NCBI GenBank assembly: GCA_030695565.1
Contig: JAUYRZ010000040.1
Span: 1 to 52,822 of the forward strand
Direction of reading: 5' to 3'
Length of the DNA: 52,822 nt
Source of the DNA: Archangium sp.
Lineage (GTDB): Bacteria; Myxococcota; Myxococcia; Myxococcales; Myxococcaceae
Below, piece by piece: positions 10,854-47,109 of the stretch. The stretch's first letter is position 1. Each line of letters opens with the position of its first letter. Under the pieces are notes generated by a model that ran no database searches, had not been told where the DNA came from, and was given only the letters and a program-made list of their open reading frames with translations. The translations under genes and the position numbers were made by a program.

Positions 10854-12188
10854 ATGTCTGATCCCGGGCGCAGCACCGTGAAGATGCCGATGCCCGATCA
10901 GATCATCGCGGGCCGGTATCGAATCATCTCGCGCCTGGGCAGCGGCGGCATGGGCATGGTCTTTCTGGCCGAACAACTCGGCGTGGGGAACAAGGTCGCC
11001 CTCAAGTTCCTCGACCCGGAGCCCACGACCGACGAGACGCGCGCGACCCGTTTTCTTCGTGAGGCGAAGGTCGCGCTCGAGGTGCAGCACCCCGGGGCGA
11101 CGCAGATTCTCGATCTCGGCCGTGACGAGGCGATGCGCTTGTTCATGTGCTTCGAGCTGGTCGAAGGAGAAGACCTGCGCGAGGTGATCAAACGGGAAGG
11201 CCGGCTGCGCTTCGGCGAGGCGAAGTCGATCTGCATTCAGGTGGCCCAGGTGCTCGCCTTCGCGCACGAACGCGGCATCGTTCATCGCGACGTGAAGCCC
11301 GAGAACCTGCGGGTGCGCCGCGATCTCGGCGGCACGCACGTGAAGGTGCTCGACTTCGGAATTGCCCGGCTGCTCAAAGACACCGGCGTGCGCTTGACGG
11401 CAGAAGGCATGCTCGCCGGCACGCCGCGGTACATGGCGCCCGAGCAGGTGAAAGATGAGCCCATCGATGGGCGCATCGATCAATACGCGTTGGGGCTGGT
11501 GCTGTTCGAGATGCTCACCGGCGCGGTGGCGATCGGCGGGAAGAACATCACGCAGATTCTGATGCACCAGCTCAAGACGTTGGTGGCCCCGCTGGCCTGG
11601 GTGGATCCGCAGCTGGCGAACCCGGCGATCGATGCGTTCATCGCGAAGGCGTGCGCGAAGGATCCATTGGATCGTTTTGCGTCGATGGCAGACTTCGTGG
11701 TGGGGCTGCAGGCGCTGCAGGTGGATGAGCGCTCGTGGCCTGAGCCCAAGTCGCCTCCGGCCAACCCGGGGAGCAGCACCGCGCAGACGCGTGATGGGGC
11801 CCCAGTGCTCGCTCCGAAAGAGGGCGAGAGCGACACGTTGGTTCGCGTGCCGGTGCAGACGCAGCAGGAGCGCCGGCTGGAGGTGCCCACCGAGCCGGAT
11901 CGCGAGCCCGTGGCGCGCAGGGCATCGTCAGAGCGGAAGACCGATCCGGAGCAGGTCAGGCAGAGCGCGAAGGTCGCGCATCCGGCGCTGGAGCTGCCGA
12001 CGGATCCCGATCGGCCGATGGTGTCTCGCGAGAAGCTGACCCTGCCTTCGCGGCGTGAAGCGTCGCGGCAGAAGGTGGTCGGCCTGGTGGTTCCTCAGCG
12101 GCCCCGCAGGTGGTGGGGGTGGGTGCTGACTTTGGCACTTGTGGGTCTCGGCGCCGCCGCCGTGTGGTGGTGGTTACGGCTGCGCTGA
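10854..12188 (+). CDS. Ser/Thr protein kinase with C-terminal membrane anchor
   Basis: This is a Hanks-type kinase of 444 residues. The kinase domain (about 21-285) is complete: glycine loop LGSGGMGMV at 29-37, ATP-binding Lys51, HRDVKPEN at 144-151, DFG at 167-169, APEQ at 195-198. A Pro/Glu-rich linker with several acidic PTDPD-like repeats leads to one membrane helix near 420-440 and a very short tail, so there is no extracellular sensor domain. Activation may therefore depend on partners. It lies directly after ddl, which suggests but does not prove a link to cell-wall synthesis. It converges with the hipA-like gene at a distance of eleven bases. Confidence 0.92.
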   Translation: MSDPGRSTVKMPMPDQIIAGRYRIISRLGSGGMGMVFLAEQLGVGNKVALKFLDPEPTTDETRATRFLREAKVALEVQHPGATQILDLGRDEAMRLFMCFELVEGEDLREVIKREGRLRFGEAKSICIQVAQVLAFAHERGIVHRDVKPENLRVRRDLGGTHVKVLDFGIARLLKDTGVRLTAEGMLAGTPRYMAPEQVKDEPIDGRIDQYALGLVLFEMLTGAVAIGGKNITQILMHQLKTLVAPLAWVDPQLANPAIDAFIAKACAKDPLDRFASMADFVVGLQALQVDERSWPEPKSPPANPGSSTAQTRDGAPVLAPKEGESDTLVRVPVQTQQERRLEVPTEPDREPVARRASSERKTDPEQVRQSAKVAHPALELPTDPDRPMVSREKLTLPSRREASRQKVVGLVVPQRPRRWWGWVLTLALVGLGAAAVWWWLRLR

Positions 12189-12199
12189 GAGCGACCAAC

Positions 12200-13369
12200 T
12201 CAGATTTTCAAACTTGAGAGATGAGCCTGAATCCTCGCCCGCTCTTCTTCACTCAGGTCGCTCTCCACTGCCCCGAAGGCAGTCCTGACACTTCTGAGTG
12301 CCGCAGTAAGACGCTCCACCAGGTCGTCGAGTGAAAGCGAAAGGGCGTGAGCCATCGGCGCGAAGTCATCAGCCACGATCGAGGCGAACGGAAAGTCACC
12401 GCGTGAGTGGAGCTTCAGCGCTACCACACGCGGGAGCTCCGGATAGACGACCGTAGCGATCTGATCATACGCAGGAGAGAGTCGCCCGCGCCGTCCATCA
12501 GGGTAGACCACTGACCAGTTCTTGAGATGAGCGTCCGCGTTCCCCGACCCGAGCATGAACGCCACTCTTCCGATGAACTCGGCCACATCGGTGGGCGACT
12601 CGCTCGCAACGAACGCGGCCATTTCCTCGAACGACCCGCCGAACTGATCAGGCCGGTCGAGTACCTGAGCAAAATCTTCTTGGTGCGTTCGCTCCGTGCC
12701 GGTGCGATCGAAACGCCGAATGAGGAGTGCCGATCCATCACCGGTTGGAATGGAAGCCGGCAACCCTTGAATCGACCTCGCATCGACGAGCTCGACGTCA
12801 GGCACTGAAAGACCACAGGCGGCCGCCCAGCGCATGGTGGCGTATTCAACCTGAACAAGCCGGGGGAACTCGCGGCCCTGAAACTTGGCCATCCATTCGG
12901 CGCTCTCGCCTCGCACAGGAAGAGTCAGGCCCCTCGCCGTCCTCGAAAGACCTACCTTCCACTGCATGCCCGCGAGCGAGACACGGAGGGTCGAGGGCCG
13001 GGAGTCGAAGTCGGGTCGACCAGCAGACCGTCGGTATACGGGGGCGTTGGACTCATGAACGACGCGAACAGCGCCTGGGAGGTCCTCCCCCAGCCAGGTC
13101 AGAAGTCCCAGTTCGTCATCATCGTCAATTCCAGCCTCAGCGACGATCGCTTTGCGGAGAGGTCCCTGCGGCAAGACGTTTTGAAACCACGGCAGCAACC
13201 GGTACGTCTCGACCCTGTGAGGAATTCGATCTTCGAACAACTGACCCAGCACGGGGCGATGGGGAAGTTTGAGGTAGTCGCGATCGAACGTAAGCACATG
13301 CGTCTCATCGTGGAATCGCTCGAGCTGCCCTACACGAACGTCGTTCAGCCAGACCGACGTCGAGGTCAA
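12200..13369 (-). CDS. HipA-family Ser/Thr kinase (toxin-like)
   Basis: The 389-residue protein has the two parts of HipA toxins: an N-terminal domain (about 1-110, with GQLFEDRIPHRVE and LPQGPLRKAI) and a kinase domain. Key elements are visible: the P-loop-like SLAGMQWK (131-138), LLIRRFDR and the HQEDFAQVL segment, the catalytic loop GNADAHLKNWS with Asp279 and Asn284, and the metal-binding LSPAYDQIA with Asp302. It should be an active kinase. Known HipA proteins phosphorylate tRNA synthetases or other targets and are neutralised by a HipB repressor. No hipB is present; the upstream partner is a DUF262 protein whose 3' end overlaps this start by four bases. Its G+C content is visibly lower than that of the flanks, suggesting transfer. 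Confidence 0.85.
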   Translation of the reverse strand: MTSTSVWLNDVRVGQLERFHDETHVLTFDRDYLKLPHRPVLGQLFEDRIPHRVETYRLLPWFQNVLPQGPLRKAIVAEAGIDDDDELGLLTWLGEDLPGAVRVVHESNAPVYRRSAGRPDFDSRPSTLRVSLAGMQWKVGLSRTARGLTLPVRGESAEWMAKFQGREFPRLVQVEYATMRWAAACGLSVPDVELVDARSIQGLPASIPTGDGSALLIRRFDRTGTERTHQEDFAQVLDRPDQFGGSFEEMAAFVASESPTDVAEFIGRVAFMLGSGNADAHLKNWSVVYPDGRRGRLSPAYDQIATVVYPELPRVVALKLHSRGDFPFASIVADDFAPMAHALSLSLDDLVERLTAALRSVRTAFGAVESDLSEEERARIQAHLSSLKI

Positions 13370-38580: not shown

Positions 38581-40545
38581 TCACTGCGGTGGCGGGGTGC
38601 CAGGGTCTGCGCGAGCGATGCGAACCGTCAGACCACCGAGCACGAGCACGGCCAGCGCCAGCACCGCCCAGAAGATCCACCGGGTCACCCCACCGGTGCG
38701 CTCGACCCACGTGGACGCGATGAACGCCGGGTTTGTTTCCGCGCGCTCGGCTTCGTGCGGCGTGGTGCGGAGCTCGCGCAGCACCTCGCTCACCCGCTCC
38801 ACGTCATAGCGGGGCGCGCGCAGCGTCGGCACACCCCACACCGCCCGGTAATCCCCGGCCGCGAGCAACGCCGTGAGCTGCGGCACCTTCACCACCGCCT
38901 CGAGTGACAGGTTGTTCAGCGGCGCGTCGCCTCCGTCATCGAGGTCGAGCGTGTACGTTCCTTCGCCCCGCGCTTTGCCGTCGAGCCAGAGCACCAGCTC
39001 TGTGCGCACGCCCCGCTCATTCGGGTTCGACGTCAGCCACCCCGACCACACCTGCACCGGACGAAGCCCCTCGCCCGCGAACGAGAGCGTCGCGTTGCGC
39101 GAGAAGTACGGCACGCCCGCGGGTGGAAGGAGCGTCAACGACGCCACCCGCCCCCCCATCGAGAACGTCCACGCCGAGTGGCCTGTGAGCTCTGCCGACG
39201 CCGCCGTCAGCGCCACCGGCAGCGTCGCGGTGCTCTCGTGCAGCACATACGGCCACTGCAGGCCTTGCCCATCCACCAGGCGCAGATCTCGGAAGTCCGG
39301 AGCCATCGTCTGCGCGTGCGTCGCAGTGAAGGTCACACTCGAGACCTCCGTGCCGCTCACCCCTCGCACCCACGCCTGCAGCGGGAACGGGGCAACCTCC
39401 AGCGCCGCGCCCGCCTTGCGGAACTCAGCGAGCGGTGACGTGGGCACGTACTCCGGGTTCTTCTGGGGCTCGCCCAGCGGCGCCGGCGCGAGGTCGAAAG
39501 GCAGCCGCACCTCGTTGTCAGAGGTGTCGAAGTGCGCGCGGCGCGTGCGGTGTCCTCCGAAGAAGAGCGTCACCGGCTGAGAGGGGGGCGTGACGAAGAC
39601 CAGCTCGGGCTGCTCGATGACGAAGGCCAACTCGAGCTGCTCGAGCATCGGGCTGTCCTCGTCCTCGATGCGCACCTCGAGGTGCTCGTCGCTGATCGCC
39701 GCGAGCGGGAGTTCGAGCCGCTCCACCGGCGTCGAGCCCGCCTGGCGGAACACCCGGCCGCGGCCCAGTTCCCCGCTCGCGCTGCGCACCGTCACCTCGC
39801 GATTGAACCAGGGCGTCGTCGTCTTCACCGACAACCGCATCGGCACGATGCCGCGCGGCTTCTCGAGCTGCCACACCGTCGACGTTCCCTCGCGCTGCGG
39901 CGACGGCGTGATGGGCCACGCCAACGTCGTCTCAGGTGGGCCCCGCTCGGCAAACGTCGCCACCGCCGACGGCGTGATGAACCCGTCGTCCTGCCCGCTC
40001 AAGGTCACGCGCAGCCGCTGTGCGTCCTTCTCCAGCGCAGGGAGCCACACCACCATCCGTTCACCGGTGCCCGGAAGGCGGAACAGGGTCGTCTCGATGC
40101 GAGCCACCACCACGCCTTTCTCGGTGAGCGCCTCGATGACCGCACGGCGAACGAAGCGAGACACGTGACTGTTGAACTCGAGCCGGGGCGTGCGCGCGCG
40201 TTGAGACGGCAGCGCAAAGGTCGCGGTCTCCGCGAAGAGGTGGGGCGTGCCCGGGTCAGCCGCCGTCTCTTGACGGCTGGCGGAGACCTGAGTGAGCCAG
40301 ACCCGCTGCTCGGCCTCGAACGGCCGCTCCCGCTGCACCACGAAGGGCACCAGCTTCCCCGAGGCATCGAACAGCCGCACGTCGGCCAGATCACGATCGA
40401 CCTGGCTCAGCACCGCGTCGGGCAGGGGCAGGCGGGCCCACGCACCGACCCGGCCTTCCAGCCTGACGGCGGCCAGCTGGGGGAAGACCGTGCGCAGTTG
40501 TTCGGGCGACTGAGCGAGCAGCAGCAGCGTGACGAGCGGGGTCAT
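38581..40545 (-). CDS. DUF3999 family exported membrane protein
   Basis: About 654 residues beginning MTPLVTLLLLAQSPEQLRT: signal sequence, long beta-rich extracytoplasmic region, and a single C-terminal membrane helix (about 625-645) with a short cytoplasmic tail. WARLPLPDAVLSQVDRDL and ADVRLFDASGKLVPFVVQR match the opening of DUF3999 proteins, and LRDLRLVDGQGLQWPYV-like repeats recur later. Its ATG overlaps the stop of the DUF2339 gene by four bases. DUF3999 and DUF2339 genes commonly neighbour each other, so they are thought to act together at the membrane; no function is established. Confidence 0.8.
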   Translation of the reverse strand: MTPLVTLLLLAQSPEQLRTVFPQLAAVRLEGRVGAWARLPLPDAVLSQVDRDLADVRLFDASGKLVPFVVQRERPFEAEQRVWLTQVSASRQETAADPGTPHLFAETATFALPSQRARTPRLEFNSHVSRFVRRAVIEALTEKGVVVARIETTLFRLPGTGERMVVWLPALEKDAQRLRVTLSGQDDGFITPSAVATFAERGPPETTLAWPITPSPQREGTSTVWQLEKPRGIVPMRLSVKTTTPWFNREVTVRSASGELGRGRVFRQAGSTPVERLELPLAAISDEHLEVRIEDEDSPMLEQLELAFVIEQPELVFVTPPSQPVTLFFGGHRTRRAHFDTSDNEVRLPFDLAPAPLGEPQKNPEYVPTSPLAEFRKAGAALEVAPFPLQAWVRGVSGTEVSSVTFTATHAQTMAPDFRDLRLVDGQGLQWPYVLHESTATLPVALTAASAELTGHSAWTFSMGGRVASLTLLPPAGVPYFSRNATLSFAGEGLRPVQVWSGWLTSNPNERGVRTELVLWLDGKARGEGTYTLDLDDGGDAPLNNLSLEAVVKVPQLTALLAAGDYRAVWGVPTLRAPRYDVERVSEVLRELRTTPHEAERAETNPAFIASTWVERTGGVTRWIFWAVLALAVLVLGGLTVRIARADPGTPPPQ

Positions 40546-43514
40546 TTCGAGTCCTTCTCGACGACGTCGGCGCGCTTGAAGACGAAGCGCTGGTACGCCA
40601 GAGAGATGATGATCAACGAGACCGCGAGGCCCATCAGCGAGGCCACCCGGTAGAGGTCCTTGAGCTGGCCCAGGTCGGAGAGGAAGACCTTGCCGATGCT
40701 CGCCAGCAGGAAGACGAGGCTCATCCAGCGCAACGCGCGCGACTTGCGCCACATGCCGACCGCCAGCAACGCCACCGCGTAGAGCACCCAGCTCAACGAC
40801 AGCGCCACGTCACGCGCGGGCAACCGGTCGAAGGTCACCGTCACCGTCGACGACTGCGAGAAGAAGTCGAACACGCTCAAGGTGACCCACGCGAACACCA
40901 CCAGCGCCGCGCCGATGGCCGACGTCGAAGCGCCCCAGGGAATCTTCCCCGCGTAGAGCCCGGTCTCCCAGCCGCGCGCACGCTGCACTTCGTGTTCGGT
41001 GAGCAACCACGTCGCCGCCATCAGGCACGCCGCGGGGATGAGGTACGTGTACGTCAGCCAGTTGAAGAAGATGACGCCGCTGCGCTGGTGGTACTCGAGC
41101 ACCCAGGGGTTGAAGAGCAGGCGCACGCTGACCAGCGTGAGCAGGGTCAGGGCCAACCACTTGAGCCCGCGCGAGTCGAAGCGCTTCCACAGCCCGAGGT
41201 AGCCCACCGCCATCAGCGCCCACGAGAGGGTGACCCACTGGTTCTCCAGCTGCAGCGGCACGGCGATCGCGATCAGCGTGCACGCGGCGGCCAGCAGCCA
41301 CATCACGCCGCGGCTGCCCAGCGAGCGTGCTGAACGTTGAGCCAGCAAGGCCGAACCGAGGGCGATGACCGCCAGGCCCACCGCCAACGCACCCTGCATT
41401 TCGCGGCCGAACGCCTCCCGCCAGAAGAGAAGCATTCCGGGGAAGGCGGCAGGGAGAGCCGTCGCCAACGCCACCGGGCCCCAGGGCCGCTCGTGGAACT
41501 TCTGCCCCGCGAAGAACAGGAGCGCGTGCAGCACCAGCGCCACGCACGTCGCCACCAGGAAGAGCTGCGTCCACGGCATCAGCTCGCCTTCGCCCGAGCG
41601 AAGTGGCTCCACCAACCGCAGTCCGAAGAGCAGGACCGTCGTGAACGCCGCGGCTCGCAGCGTGCCGCGAATCGAGGCCGCGACTCCCAGCGCGGTGATC
41701 AACCCGAGCGCCACCAGCACCTGCATCGGCTGCGTCGGCAGCTCGGTCACCGAGAGGATCGCGATGCTCAGCGTCGCGATGACGAACGCCACCAGCACCC
41801 GCTCGACCCTCGCGAAGAAGGTGGCACCGAGCAGGGCGAGACCGAGCACGAGGGACGAGCCCAGCGTCAGCACCGGGTCTGCGTTCACGCTCGCGTCCAC
41901 GAAGGTGCTTCGGGTCGCGAGGTTCAGGTAGTCGACCGCGAAGGCCAGGGCAGGTGCGAGGCCGACGACGAGTTGCCAGCCTGGCGCCGTGTCTTTGCGG
42001 CCCATCGCGACGAACAGCAGCGTGATGACTCCGAAGCCGATGGAGAAGGTGAGGTGCGATTCGTCGTGCACGCTTCGGACGGCGGCCAGCAGCAGCACGC
42101 CCATGATGCCGGCCAGCAGCCAACGCCCCGCAGTCAGCGCGGTGGTGCGACGGGCTTCGGCTTGTCGCGGCCACTCGACGTTCAGCACGCCCACGGCAGC
42201 GAGCGCGAGGTTGACCAGCAGGAAGGTGACCGAGGTCAGCTCCGTCGCCGCCCGGTTCGAGGCCGCGAGCCCCAACACCAGCAACACCGCCGCCACGGCG
42301 GTCGAGAGCAGCGCTTCTTCTCCCTCCTTTGCCTTGCGGTGAATGAAGCCCGCGCCGACGAGGAGGATCGCGAGGAAGCCTGCGGTCGGTGCCAGGGGGA
42401 CTGCCAGCGAGTTGCTCGCTCCGAAGTAGACCAGCACCACCGTCGGCGTCAGCAACGCGAACCCTTGCAGCAGCCGCGAGGCCGGCGTCGGGGCGTCGTC
42501 GTCATCGGTGAAGCGACTGGAGAAGACGCCGAAGAGCACCGCGAAGACCGCCATCACCACGAAGGCGATCCACACCTGCTGCGGCTCCATCTTCGTGAAG
42601 ACCCAGCCGAACTCCATGAGCAGCGTGCCGCCCAACGCGAGGGCCGCGATGCTCTTCCACTTCTTGAGGTAGGCGATCCCCAACAGCGCGACGTCGAGGA
42701 GGAAGACGTAGGTGAAGAGTGGGCCGGGTGCGTTCTGGCCCGTCGAGAGCAGGAGCGGGGTGGCAAAGCCTCCGACCAGCCCGAGGTAGGCCGCGATGCG
42801 ATTGTCTTGTTTGACGGCGAACACCACGGCGACTGCGGTGATCAACACCATCAGCAGGAAGGCGACGGGAAGCGGGATGAGATCGTAGAGCGCCTTGGAC
42901 GCCCACGTCGCTGCGTAGAGCACCACGATGCCGCCGCCCCCGAGCGCCTGGCCGGTGACTTCGTAGCGGGCACGGAGCTTTTGTGAGGCCACCAGCGCGG
43001 AGAGGCCGGTCAGCACAGCTCCGATGACTCGAATGGTCGGGGAGAGCCACCCCTGTGCGATGGAGTATTTGAAGAGGTAGAGGCCCGCCATCGCGAACAC
43101 GATGCCGCCGAGGACTGCGGCGCCGCGGACTCCGATCCACTTCTCCCACTCGACGGGTGCGGCCGCTGGTGCAGCGGGCGGCTGCGGTTCTGCTTCGCGC
43201 TCTTCCCCACGAGGCGCCGACGACACTGGCTCCGGCAGTGGCACTGGCTCCGGCAGTGGCACCGGCACCGGCTCGGGCAGCGATGCGGGCGCCACGTGCG
43301 CTTGCAGCTCTTCTCGTGGGGCCTCGATGACCTGTGGGGGCGTGGCCCGCATCGTCTGCAGCTGACGCTGCAGCACCTCGAGCCGCAGCATCGTCATGTC
43401 GGAGCGCTTGATCGCCTCCTCCGCGCGACCCCGCGCCATCCACGCGATGACGACCGACGCGATGACAGGGACCGCCGTGCAGCAGAGTCCGAAACCGAAG
43501 ACCGCTTCGTCCAT
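40542..43514 (-). CDS. DUF2339 polytopic membrane protein
   Basis: The 990-residue product starts MDEAVFGFGLCCTAVPVIAS with an N-terminal membrane helix, a coiled stretch and a Pro/Glu linker, then over twenty hydrophobic helices to the end. EWEKWIGVRGAAVLGGIVF and QALGGGGIVVLYAATWAS are the DUF2339 signatures. Family members are about 700-1100 residues; the role is unknown but is suspected to concern the cell envelope. The linker carries an 18-base tandem repeat coding for PEPVPL units. An upstream in-frame extension to 43613 is Arg-rich and rejected. Confidence 0.85.
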   Translation of the reverse strand: MDEAVFGFGLCCTAVPVIASVVIAWMARGRAEEAIKRSDMTMLRLEVLQRQLQTMRATPPQVIEAPREELQAHVAPASLPEPVPVPLPEPVPLPEPVSSAPRGEEREAEPQPPAAPAAAPVEWEKWIGVRGAAVLGGIVFAMAGLYLFKYSIAQGWLSPTIRVIGAVLTGLSALVASQKLRARYEVTGQALGGGGIVVLYAATWASKALYDLIPLPVAFLLMVLITAVAVVFAVKQDNRIAAYLGLVGGFATPLLLSTGQNAPGPLFTYVFLLDVALLGIAYLKKWKSIAALALGGTLLMEFGWVFTKMEPQQVWIAFVVMAVFAVLFGVFSSRFTDDDDAPTPASRLLQGFALLTPTVVLVYFGASNSLAVPLAPTAGFLAILLVGAGFIHRKAKEGEEALLSTAVAAVLLVLGLAASNRAATELTSVTFLLVNLALAAVGVLNVEWPRQAEARRTTALTAGRWLLAGIMGVLLLAAVRSVHDESHLTFSIGFGVITLLFVAMGRKDTAPGWQLVVGLAPALAFAVDYLNLATRSTFVDASVNADPVLTLGSSLVLGLALLGATFFARVERVLVAFVIATLSIAILSVTELPTQPMQVLVALGLITALGVAASIRGTLRAAAFTTVLLFGLRLVEPLRSGEGELMPWTQLFLVATCVALVLHALLFFAGQKFHERPWGPVALATALPAAFPGMLLFWREAFGREMQGALAVGLAVIALGSALLAQRSARSLGSRGVMWLLAAACTLIAIAVPLQLENQWVTLSWALMAVGYLGLWKRFDSRGLKWLALTLLTLVSVRLLFNPWVLEYHQRSGVIFFNWLTYTYLIPAACLMAATWLLTEHEVQRARGWETGLYAGKIPWGASTSAIGAALVVFAWVTLSVFDFFSQSSTVTVTFDRLPARDVALSLSWVLYAVALLAVGMWRKSRALRWMSLVFLLASIGKVFLSDLGQLKDLYRVASLMGLAVSLIIISLAYQRFVFKRADVVEKDSK
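43225..43260. repeat. Two perfect 18-base tandem repeats inside the DUF2339 gene
   Basis: ACTGGCTCCGGCAGTGGC occurs at 43225-43242 and again at 43243-43260, followed by a diverged third unit. Because the unit is a multiple of three, copy changes alter only the number of Pro-Glu-Pro-Val units in the linker. Confidence 0.8.
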
Positions 43515-43625
43515 GGAGCCTGGCCTAACACCGCTCGCGTCAGCTCCTTCCTTCAGACTGCGGTTGCGCACGTTGCTGCGCAGCGACGTGCAGTCGTTTC
43601 GGCGCTCGAGCACGGACCGCTGAAG

Positions 43626-43975: not shown

Positions 43976-45007
43976 TCAAGGAACGCGAATCGAGCCCTGC
44001 TCGAAGGCCGGGTGATCCGCGCAGCGATAGCCGTAGGTGCCGAAGTCGGAGAAGCGCACCGTCTTCGTGATGCCCGTCGTGGTGGTCATCTGGCGATTGC
44101 TGGGGCCGCACGTCTGCTGCAGCCGGTGGAGCGTGAACGTGCCCGAGAACGTGACGTCCTGGCTGGTGGTCACCCGCATACACCTGGGTGAATAGCCGCT
44201 GCTGCCGAAGGTGACGGTGCGGCTGGCGCCAGCAGCGGTGCGGTCGTCGTAGACCGTGCAGTTCGCCGGGAAACCCGTGCACGGAGGCGGCGCGCAGACG
44301 TGACTCGAATTGCACACCCAGGGCAGACCACCCGCAGTGCACTCGGCATCTTCACAGCAGCCCGCGGTGGGAACGCAGGTGTCGGGGCACGCGCGCTGGC
44401 CGGAGGGGCAGTCGATGGCCAACGTCTCCAGACCGGCATCGAGGCCCGTCGAGGTGACCTGCAACGTGGGCGCGCCCGGTACGGAGTCCTGCACGTGCAG
44501 CTCGAGCTCGCTGCGGCCCGAGCTGATCACCCAGTTGAGCGGCATGTTGGAGCAGGTGTTCTCGCTGTAGAGCGTCATCGTCGCGGAGGATGGCGTGAAG
44601 GAGAGCGGCACATCGGCGGTCGCGATGACCGGCGCTCCGCAGCGATCCTGCATCTGAACCTTCAAGGCAGGTGAGCAGACGTCTCTGAGGATCTGCGCCG
44701 GGGGAATGATGACGAGCTGCGCTGCGCCACCGCAGCCGGCATCGACACCCGCGTCTTCTCCCGCATCTGGCGTGCCCGCGTCGGGCTCCACCACGCCCGC
44801 GTCGGGAGGGCCCGCGTCCGGGGCGCCCGCATCGACCTCGACTCCGCCACCACCTCCTCCGCCGCCGCCCGTCGAACCGCTGTCCACACTGCCGCCCCCG
44901 CTGCCCGCGTCGCAGTACCCACCCGCGCAGTACGCACGATCGAGGTCGAAGCACGCTGAGAGAGCCGACACCGCCAACGACAGAACCAGGATCCGGGAGG
45001 GCTTCAT
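43976..45007 (-). CDS. Lipoprotein with cupredoxin (stellacyanin-like) C-terminal domain
   Basis: The 343-residue protein begins MKPSRILVLSLAVSALSAC with lipobox Cys19, then a low-complexity Gly and Asp-Ala-Gly linker, a beta domain with disulfide-prone Cys residues, and a Cys-rich strip (CPSGQRACPDTCVPTAGCC). The last 100 residues look like a cupredoxin: SPRCMRVTTSQDVTFSG, His in FTLHRL, and YGYRCADHPAFEQGSI. Cys and His in CADH would bind type 1 copper, and the residue five after that His is Gln, the axial ligand of stellacyanins, rather than Met. It is probably an outer-membrane electron carrier or copper protein. The copper assignment is inference from ligand spacing. Confidence 0.75.
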   Translation of the reverse strand: MKPSRILVLSLAVSALSACFDLDRAYCAGGYCDAGSGGGSVDSGSTGGGGGGGGGVEVDAGAPDAGPPDAGVVEPDAGTPDAGEDAGVDAGCGGAAQLVIIPPAQILRDVCSPALKVQMQDRCGAPVIATADVPLSFTPSSATMTLYSENTCSNMPLNWVISSGRSELELHVQDSVPGAPTLQVTSTGLDAGLETLAIDCPSGQRACPDTCVPTAGCCEDAECTAGGLPWVCNSSHVCAPPPCTGFPANCTVYDDRTAAGASRTVTFGSSGYSPRCMRVTTSQDVTFSGTFTLHRLQQTCGPSNRQMTTTTGITKTVRFSDFGTYGYRCADHPAFEQGSIRVP

Positions 45008-45108: not shown

Positions 45109-47109
45109 CTACTTCCGCTTCGCCGGCTTCTTCTTCGGCGCCGGAGCCCGCGTCGCCTTCGGTACGGGCTTCAAGTCGACCGACAGCGACACATTCTCCG
45201 AGAGCACCACTTCACGCGTCTCCTCGAGATAGTCGGTGAGCACCAGCGACAGTGAAGCTGCTTCACCCCTCGGCAGCTCGACGTGCAGCGGCGTGACACC
45301 CAGCACCTCGGCACCCCGCTTCACCTGCGCACCCACGGGCGTCGACTTCACATCGAGCCACACCGTCTTCGGCACCGGCGCGGGCGGCTCGATCACCTTC
45401 ACGGGCACCGGCGTGGGCGTCACCTCAGCCGGCGGCGGGCTCACGAACGTCCACGCGACGGCTGCCGCGAGCAACAGCACCACCACCACCGCGGCGATCA
45501 ACGGCAGCCGCGACGGTCGCACCGCCGCGGCCAGCGCCGCTTCGTCGATCTCCACCACCGGCGCAGGTGCACCGGTGAACGGCTGCAACGCATCCGCGAG
45601 CGCGGCGGCGCTGGGGAAACGGTCGGCTGGATCCTTCTCCAGGCACCGCATCACCACCGCGCCCAGCCCCGAAGGAATGCGCTCACCACCCGGCGTCACG
45701 TTCGGCAGCGGCGGCGGCGGGCTCTGGGTGATCTCGATGACCAGCTTCCCGAAGTTGTCCGCGATGAACGGCTGCCGGCCCGTGAGCAGCTCGTAGATCA
45801 CCAGCCCCACCGCGTAGACGTCGACGCGCGCGTCGGCGAGGCCACCCATCGCCTGCTCCGGCGCCATGTACTCGGGCGTGCCGACCACCACGCCCGCCTT
45901 GGTGCCCACCAGCTTCAAATCACCGATCGGCCTGAGCAACTTCGCGACCCCGAAGTCGAGCACCTTCACGAAGTCGGGCTCACCATGGCGCGTGATGAGG
46001 AAGATGTTCTCTGGCTTCACGTCGCGGTGCACCACGCCGACTTCATGCGCCGCGTGGAGCGCACGCGCGACCTGCTGCCCCAGGTTGACCGTGCGCCTGA
46101 TGGCGAACGGCCCGTGGTTGATGGCCTCGGCGAGCGCGAACCCCTCGAGCACCTCCATCACGCAGTACACGCAGCGCCGGCCGTCGGGCAGCGGCTCGTC
46201 ACCGAAGTGCGTGACGCCGACGATGTGCTGGTTCTCGATGGCGTTGACCGCCTGCACCTCCTGCACGAAACGATGCACGAACTCGGGCTCGAGCAGGTGT
46301 TCCTGCTTGAGCACCTTGAGCGCTGCCTTCTCACCGGTGCGCGTGTCGGTGGCCAGATAGACCTTCGCCATCGCGCCTTCGCCGAGCACCTTCTCGATCT
46401 TCCACGCGGAGAGTGTCTGCCCCTCGAGCTGAGGCTCCATCACCTCGACCTCGACCACCAAATGGTTGCCGGAGACCGTGCGCGCCTGGGCCCGCGCCCG
46501 CAGTGACTCCAGCGTCTGGCTCAAGGTAGCGGCCGAGACCCGATCCGCGATGGACCGCTGCAACGCCGTCTCGAAGGGGCTGGCGTCTTTCGAGCCCGAG
46601 CCCGCGGCGAGCAACACCTGCGCGAGAGACCGCACGTCACTTTCCGCGCTCGCATCGCGGGGAGCGAGCCCCACCAACGACGCGTCGAGCACCGCCGGCG
46701 AACCGGGGAAGAGATCGGCCGGGCTCACCTGCCCCAGGGACAGCCCCGCGGCGTGCAAGGTGGCCAGCGCATCGGCGACCTCCACGCCCAACGAGACGAG
46801 CGACTCCACCGGCTGACGCGCGCTGCGATGCAGGGTGGTCCACGGCACCAACGAGAGCACCGCGGCCGGTCGGCCATCGTCGAGCACCACCCCACCGCGA
46901 ATCATGCGCAACGAAGGGTGGCTCAGCTGGGCGAGCGCCTCGAGGCCATCGAGAAAGCGGGCCTTGTCGACCACGAGGCCGTCTTTGACCACCCGAAGCT
47001 CGACCTCGACGCCATCCACCTTGCCCCGTCGACGCTCAGAGCGGGGATCACCCGAGAGCAGTTCCCCCACCTCGATTGCGCGCTTCGTCACGGCGGTGGG
47101 GCTACTCAC
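45109..47109 (-). CDS. Tandem pseudokinase-Ser/Thr kinase with PEGA domain
   Basis: The 666-residue protein has two kinase-like regions. Residues about 30-205 have kinase-like helices (LEALAQLSHPSLRMI, VADALATLHAAGLSLGQVSP) but neither HRD nor DFG, so this is a pseudokinase. Residues 236-511 are a complete Hanks kinase: GEGAMAKV 243-250, Lys265, HRDVKPEN 361-368, DFG 385-387, APEQ 416-419. A membrane helix at 536-555 is followed by a PEGA domain (WLDVKSTPVGAQVKRG, GVTPLHVELPRGE) and a Lys-rich tail, presumably outside the cytoplasm. Its start overlaps the end of hrcA by eight bases, so the two are co-expressed. Confidence 0.88.
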   Translation of the reverse strand: MSSPTAVTKRAIEVGELLSGDPRSERRRGKVDGVEVELRVVKDGLVVDKARFLDGLEALAQLSHPSLRMIRGGVVLDDGRPAAVLSLVPWTTLHRSARQPVESLVSLGVEVADALATLHAAGLSLGQVSPADLFPGSPAVLDASLVGLAPRDASAESDVRSLAQVLLAAGSGSKDASPFETALQRSIADRVSAATLSQTLESLRARAQARTVSGNHLVVEVEVMEPQLEGQTLSAWKIEKVLGEGAMAKVYLATDTRTGEKAALKVLKQEHLLEPEFVHRFVQEVQAVNAIENQHIVGVTHFGDEPLPDGRRCVYCVMEVLEGFALAEAINHGPFAIRRTVNLGQQVARALHAAHEVGVVHRDVKPENIFLITRHGEPDFVKVLDFGVAKLLRPIGDLKLVGTKAGVVVGTPEYMAPEQAMGGLADARVDVYAVGLVIYELLTGRQPFIADNFGKLVIEITQSPPPPLPNVTPGGERIPSGLGAVVMRCLEKDPADRFPSAAALADALQPFTGAPAPVVEIDEAALAAAVRPSRLPLIAAVVVVLLLAAAVAWTFVSPPPAEVTPTPVPVKVIEPPAPVPKTVWLDVKSTPVGAQVKRGAEVLGVTPLHVELPRGEAASLSLVLTDYLEETREVVLSENVSLSVDLKPVPKATRAPAPKKKPAKRK

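Follow-up and report, generated by a model that had tools for sequence, protein, structure and literature searches.

A single open reading frame in the window (the whole 52,822-nucleotide stretch of Archangium sp. DNA analysed here, contig C74 of a source genome of 8.5 Mb in 134 contigs) encodes an active-type Ser/Thr kinase preceded by a second domain that, judged by predicted fold and motif loss, is a pseudokinase. We lean towards reading the product as a membrane-anchored kinase whose dead, compact front domain now binds in cis, as a modulator or a docking platform. The original prediction, made from the letters of the window, had proposed just such a fusion of a pseudokinase ahead of an active kinase; it is borne out here, and the fusion is conserved in relatives. 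The gene, the parts of its product and its upstream neighbour are as follows.

45109..47109, minus strand: tandem pseudokinase-kinase gene, a single open frame with a GTG start, 666 aa
46492..47085, minus strand: compact pseudokinase domain, residues 9–206, assigned from AlphaFold2, PDB kinase Z scores of 18–20, a motif census and a shuffle control
46426..46491, minus strand: interdomain linker, residues 207–228, of low pLDDT, containing TVSG at 211 as well as an acidic run that closes with EPQL
45598..46401, minus strand: active-type Hanks Ser/Thr kinase domain, residues 237–504, Pfam PF00069 (Pkinase), E 7.9e-44
45442..45507, minus strand: single transmembrane helix, residues 535–556, hydropathy peak 2.79
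45166..45357, minus strand: PEGA-like tail, residues 585–648, presumably periplasmic, PF08308 at 16.9 bits
47102..48163, minus strand: hrcA, heat-shock repressor, PF01628, E 2.2e-58, directly upstream of the tandem kinase gene

AlphaFold2 modelling of residues 9–228 with 10 aligned sequences (pLDDT 88.6, pTM 0.83, with pLDDT below 50 only from residue 214 on) predicts a compact, two-lobed protein kinase for residues 9–206, which contains the stretch at residues 30–205 first noted as kinase-like. The best Foldseek matches of this model in the PDB are kinases, and VIA-align places it on PknA (Z 20.1, rmsd 2.6, 197 residues), PknI (Z 19.6), PknB (Z 19.2) and the MviN pseudokinase (Z 18.7, rmsd 2.9, 201 residues), with Z of at least 8 for all 1000 chains compared. 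The structural comparison suggested alongside the original prediction has therefore returned a kinase fold, and a non-kinase fold for residues 1–230 is ruled out by the AlphaFold2 model, the Foldseek matches and PDB Z scores of 18–20. At the level of sequence, an HMM built from 54 single-domain kinases gives the front segment 46.3 bits, where the best of 2000 shuffles of the same segment reaches 11.6 bits, and hhalign relates the front domains to the active domains with probability 99.0 (E 3e-18); the shuffles and this profile-profile comparison rule out a chance resemblance. Pfam gives no kinase match in residues 9–228 of the window protein, and a genome-wide PF00069 scan at E<=1 gives none over the front segment; six of ten family members match PF07714 unaided at E<=1 (best 1.2e-07). 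Among records with a name, those most similar to the front domain come from two MAGs, one of an Archangium sp. (83% identity) and one of a Myxococcales bacterium (87% over 143 residues).

Most catalytic features are absent from this front domain. The β3 lysine is Arg39 (motif VELR), the αC glutamate position holds Gly, HRD is replaced by LGQ (125–127) and the catalytic-loop Asn by Asp; the glycine-rich loop is gone, and the activation segment, from the DFG position to the αF region, is 12 residues long, where the active domain has 41. The initial description of the front half as having neither HRD nor DFG holds for the motifs as such, but the DFG Asp survives as D142, within DAS. Residues 9–206, which combine the predicted kinase fold with loss of at least one motif of the catalytic triad (here K and HRD), are a pseudokinase by these measures, and their residues make phosphorylation by this domain very unlikely.

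The domain behind it, residues 237–504, is a canonical PknB-like Ser/Thr kinase. It carries GEGAM, and all five Hanks-type hallmarks are present: the β3 Lys (K265), the αC Glu (E284), HRD (361–363), Asn (N368) and DFG (385–387). The Pfam Pkinase bounds (237–504, E 7.9e-44) agree with the complete kinase proposed at 236–511, PknB is the closest solved structure by sequence (E 2e-47), and a model of the tandem compared with the PDB gave PknB at Z 33.6, in a comparison that spanned the C-terminal kinase only. A clear transmembrane helix follows at residues 535–556, as anticipated. The proposed PEGA tail is likely, although the PF08308 match in the window protein, at 16.9 bits, lies below the curated cut-off of 20.8; two of eight relatives scanned pass the cut-off (L044, 25.1 bits; L049, 25.8 bits), one falls below it and five have no match at E<=0.01. 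PknB itself bears PASTA sensors and is not known to carry a pseudokinase in front. PknB/PknA-type Hanks kinases share with the window protein a PknB-matching kinase followed by one transmembrane helix; the window protein differs in its PEGA-like tail and tandem layout. Presumably, the tail would respond to a signal from the envelope, and the strength or the partner of kinase action would be set by the front domain.

Eight other genomes contain window-type relatives with the same layout (G002, G003, G004, G005, G007, G010, G018 and G068), and a compact type akin to these is present in G011, G097 and G066. Since orthologues in several genomes have the same fusion, a one-off or misassembled fusion is ruled out. 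The window's own genome, with 141 PF00069 matches in all, encodes two more tandem proteins, on contigs C123 (L053) and C65 (L112). Across a sample of 195 genomes from the phylum, a tandem profile matched end to end at at least 31 places in at least 21 genomes, a lower bound, as the six best candidates per genome were scored; among the matches listed, the 21 genomes comprise 20 from the window's own family and a single one from a different family in its order.

A motif census of these proteins shows how unevenly the two halves have been preserved. K, HRD and the DFG Asp are intact in only 3 of 35 N-domains (L097, L099 and L100), against intact catalytic residues in all 34 C-domains; the census covered loci with an N-lobe, so that the C-lobe remnants L137–L146 were left aside, as were the incomplete copies L050, L051 and L052, and L126 contributed its N-domain only. 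Of the 35 N-domains, 31 no longer have the HRD Arg, with Gly in its place in 27 of those, and the front domain of L150 is without the DFG Asp. The three tandems with intact motifs, found in G015 and G014, have the same order as the window protein and homologous domains in both halves, with a front kinase that is intact where the window's is dead; they look like the ancestral state because this front kinase keeps K, the αC Glu, HRD, Asn and DFG. At the other end of the range, L137–L142 and L143–L146 have lost the N-lobe, and their C-lobe half alone matches the N-domain profile at 44–100 bits. These remnants, from G096, G070, G073, G080, G090, G085, G067, G106, G009 and G103, fall at two separate positions in a kinase tree that included eight of the ten loci, suggesting at least two origins, and the C-lobe remnant could be a general cryptic module ahead of myxobacterial kinases. 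Finally, loss of the front domain is complete in L115 (G009:C347), which groups with the window protein in a subclade of eight rows (100/99); its frame starts near the linker, and its kinase is intact. The family therefore contains a series from intact kinase to full pseudokinase, compact pseudokinase (the window), C-lobe-only remnant and loss, and because members without the module exist, the module is dispensable in some lineages. L115 amounts to a natural deletion control.

In phylogenetic trees, the back kinases of the tandems form one clade together with nine single kinases (96/96 in one tree, 99/95 in another); these C-domain trees were built without the truncated L047 and L101, and the second of them also without the singles L128, L130 and L134 and the remnants L140 and L141. 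For the N-domains, an earlier, larger tree of 88 rows splits them in two, with eight window-type domains apart on a long branch, whereas in a later tree of 52 rows a single branch (support 100/98) separates 31 N-domains from 21 others. The larger tree requires two changes for the N-domains and the smaller one, with different singles, requires one; we prefer the latter, and regard the deep attachment of the long branch with the window-type N-domains as uncertain. With the N-domains as one clade, a single ancestral tandem of two kinases probably lost catalysis in the front one and kept it intact in the back one.

Despite its lost motifs, the front domain appears to be maintained, because dN/dS lies well under 1. 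Estimates by the Nei-Gojobori method, rough owing to GC-rich DNA and large distances, are 0.15 and 0.14 for the N-domain of the window against G003 and G004 (220 and 141 codons), with 0.32 and 0.22 for the kinase; other pairs among five window-type genomes span 0.13–0.80 for the N-domain and 0.29–0.61 for the kinase. For the other groups, the ranges are 0.18–0.50 (N-module) and 0.15–0.35 (kinase), and C-lobe remnants give 0.27–0.50. These values do not look like neutral decay, and partly relaxed constraint is possible, since the N-module is the faster in those other groups and the more distant window-type pairs have N-domain values of 0.41–0.80. The notion that the front domain is a functionless relic in slow decay would fit the graded erosion and loss across the family and an N-module that usually evolves faster than the kinase, but is hard to square with an open frame, a well-packed predicted fold, ratios of about 0.14–0.15 among close relatives and the ratios retained even by C-lobe remnants, and we consider it highly improbable.

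A front domain that is maintained in this way and no longer phosphorylates would act by binding. D142 and Arg39 could be compatible with nucleotide or metal binding, and the domain might on this basis be a ligand sensor, holding a nucleotide or metal or having acquired a new transfer chemistry. The DFG Asp is present in each of the eight window-type N-domains, seven of which have Arg and one Lys at the β3 position, and the bacterial pseudokinases SidJ and SelO set a precedent for new chemistry (PMC12599244, cited throughout from the available part of its text). Weighing on the other side, the window domain has neither glycine-rich loop nor HRD, the αC Glu is absent in seven of the eight window-type N-domains, and the nucleotide-binding N-lobe is missing altogether in the most reduced relatives, which makes a ligand sensor improbable. 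What survives longest in those relatives is the C-lobe with the linker, and for this reason the C-lobe face by the linker, rather than the nucleotide pocket or the N-lobe, would be the working surface through which the domain modulates the following kinase in cis or serves it as a docking platform. In the linker just after the dead domain, many proteins, clearly not all, have a T-x(0,1)-[VILM]-S motif, which is also found in the intact and remnant types; as a lead only, it is a possible candidate for an autophosphorylation or FHA docking site.

The same erosion of the N-lobe bears on a second arrangement, in which the pseudokinase would be the activating partner of the active kinase in a back-to-back N-lobe pair. 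Pairs of this kind are formed by PknB-type kinases and by the MviN pseudokinase (PMC12599244), and our model resembles both. The positions of PknB L33 and D76 are, however, L or I in 22 of 27 and D in 25 of 27 C-domains, against L in 3 of 27 and D in 1 of 27 N-domains; the window kinase has T258 and H301 there, and several relatives have no N-lobe at all. Because the interface residues persist in the C-domains and not in the N-domains, simple back-to-back pairing between the halves is disfavoured, and we give this arrangement little chance.

JAKs are the best-known case of a dead kinase domain placed before an active one, in a FERM-SH2-pseudokinase-tyrosine kinase architecture. Like the window protein, JAK JH2-JH1, wheat TKPs and obscurin unite dead and active kinase domains in a single polypeptide, whereas the window tandem is bacterial and of Ser/Thr type, has a membrane helix in the chain and has its own origin in a myxobacterial kinase clade. 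Membership of the JAK family was rejected, as Pfam finds no FERM or SH2 domain, the kinase is of Ser/Thr type and the membrane helix is C-terminal, and the comparison is an analogy of layout only. By that analogy, the pseudokinase might pack on the active kinase and hold it off until a signal reaches the PEGA-like tail: the order is the same, with the dead domain first and a short linker, and the front domain is maintained. Yet a two-domain model (pTM 0.55) shows no confident docking of the domains, relatives without the module such as L115 retain an intact kinase and show no other domain that would compensate, and the longest-lasting part is the C-lobe only, so that autoinhibition of the JAK kind seems to us rather unlikely. 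The tandem model, with this pTM and a PDB comparison limited to the C-terminal kinase, does not predict domain orientation with confidence. Intramolecular regulation as such is plausible, and a modulator or docking role of the C-lobe is favoured over JAK-like inhibition.

Among bacterial pseudokinases, MviN (Rv3910) of Mycobacterium tuberculosis, in the ActPs3 family, resembles the window domain in its compact kinase fold, degraded motifs and deleted activation loop; its β3 motif is VALT, whereas the window has VELR and keeps the DFG Asp (PMC12599244). Since all three motifs are degraded in ActPs3, with loss of the DFG Asp among them (PMC12599244, Table 1), membership of that family was rejected, as was membership of the GLW pseudokinases, which require GLW for HRD and a poly-leucine β3 (PMC12599244) where the window has LGQ and VELR. 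The MviN pseudokinase is part of a peptidoglycan-synthesis membrane protein, whereas the window's sits in a kinase chain. The MviN domain is not known to be followed by an active kinase.

Our literature search found no description of a bacterial pseudokinase-kinase tandem, the kinase-pseudokinase tandems in the accessible texts being those of plant, muscle and JAK papers; an earlier mention in a 2008 myxobacterial kinome paper is possible. The available text of PMC12599244, a review of bacterial pseudokinase families, makes no mention of tandem, fused or dual kinases, of two kinase domains, of myxobacteria or of PEGA, and that of PMC2877116 and PMC7694542 does not describe a tandem pseudokinase-kinase layout. 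Eleven pseudokinases among 99 M. xanthus kinases are cited in PMC6791715, in the part available. Myxobacterial kinome counts probably understate tandem proteins, because Pfam and the genome-wide PF00069 scan miss the front domain. We tentatively propose that myxobacteria hold a complete living series from kinase to regulator, in which the C-lobe and linker may form an in-cis docking or control module, the JAK logic invented independently and largely invisible to domain databases. Accounts of regulatory gain by pseudoenzymes mostly rely on eukaryotic cases that lie far apart. In the related bacteria studied here, the same conserved kinase is found behind front domains that are intact, dead, halved or missing, which makes the consequence of every step for kinase output directly measurable and the family a natural experiment on the passage from dead enzyme to regulator.

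With the first GTG as start, the tandem kinase gene overlaps hrcA by 8 bases. Orthologues of the 666-aa protein align from about residue 7 (VTK...), which is also a GTG, six codons later, and as they begin near there it may be the true start. The hrcA neighbour is kept at 5 of 13 relative loci examined; it was not found at L043, L048 and L096, each with more than 3 kb of upstream sequence, and at the other five loci the sequence ahead of the frame extends for no more than 2.5 kb. This is suggestive of a possible tie between the tandem kinase and heat-shock control. Downstream of the kinase gene, also on the minus strand, lie a secreted-looking protein of 343 aa with an Asp/Ala/Gly-rich linker and no Pfam match (43976–45007) and a DUF2339 membrane protein of 1023 aa (40542–43613). 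Elsewhere in the window, a single Hanks kinase (10854–12188, plus strand) adjoins a protein that looks HipA-type kinase-like by eye (12200–13369, minus strand).
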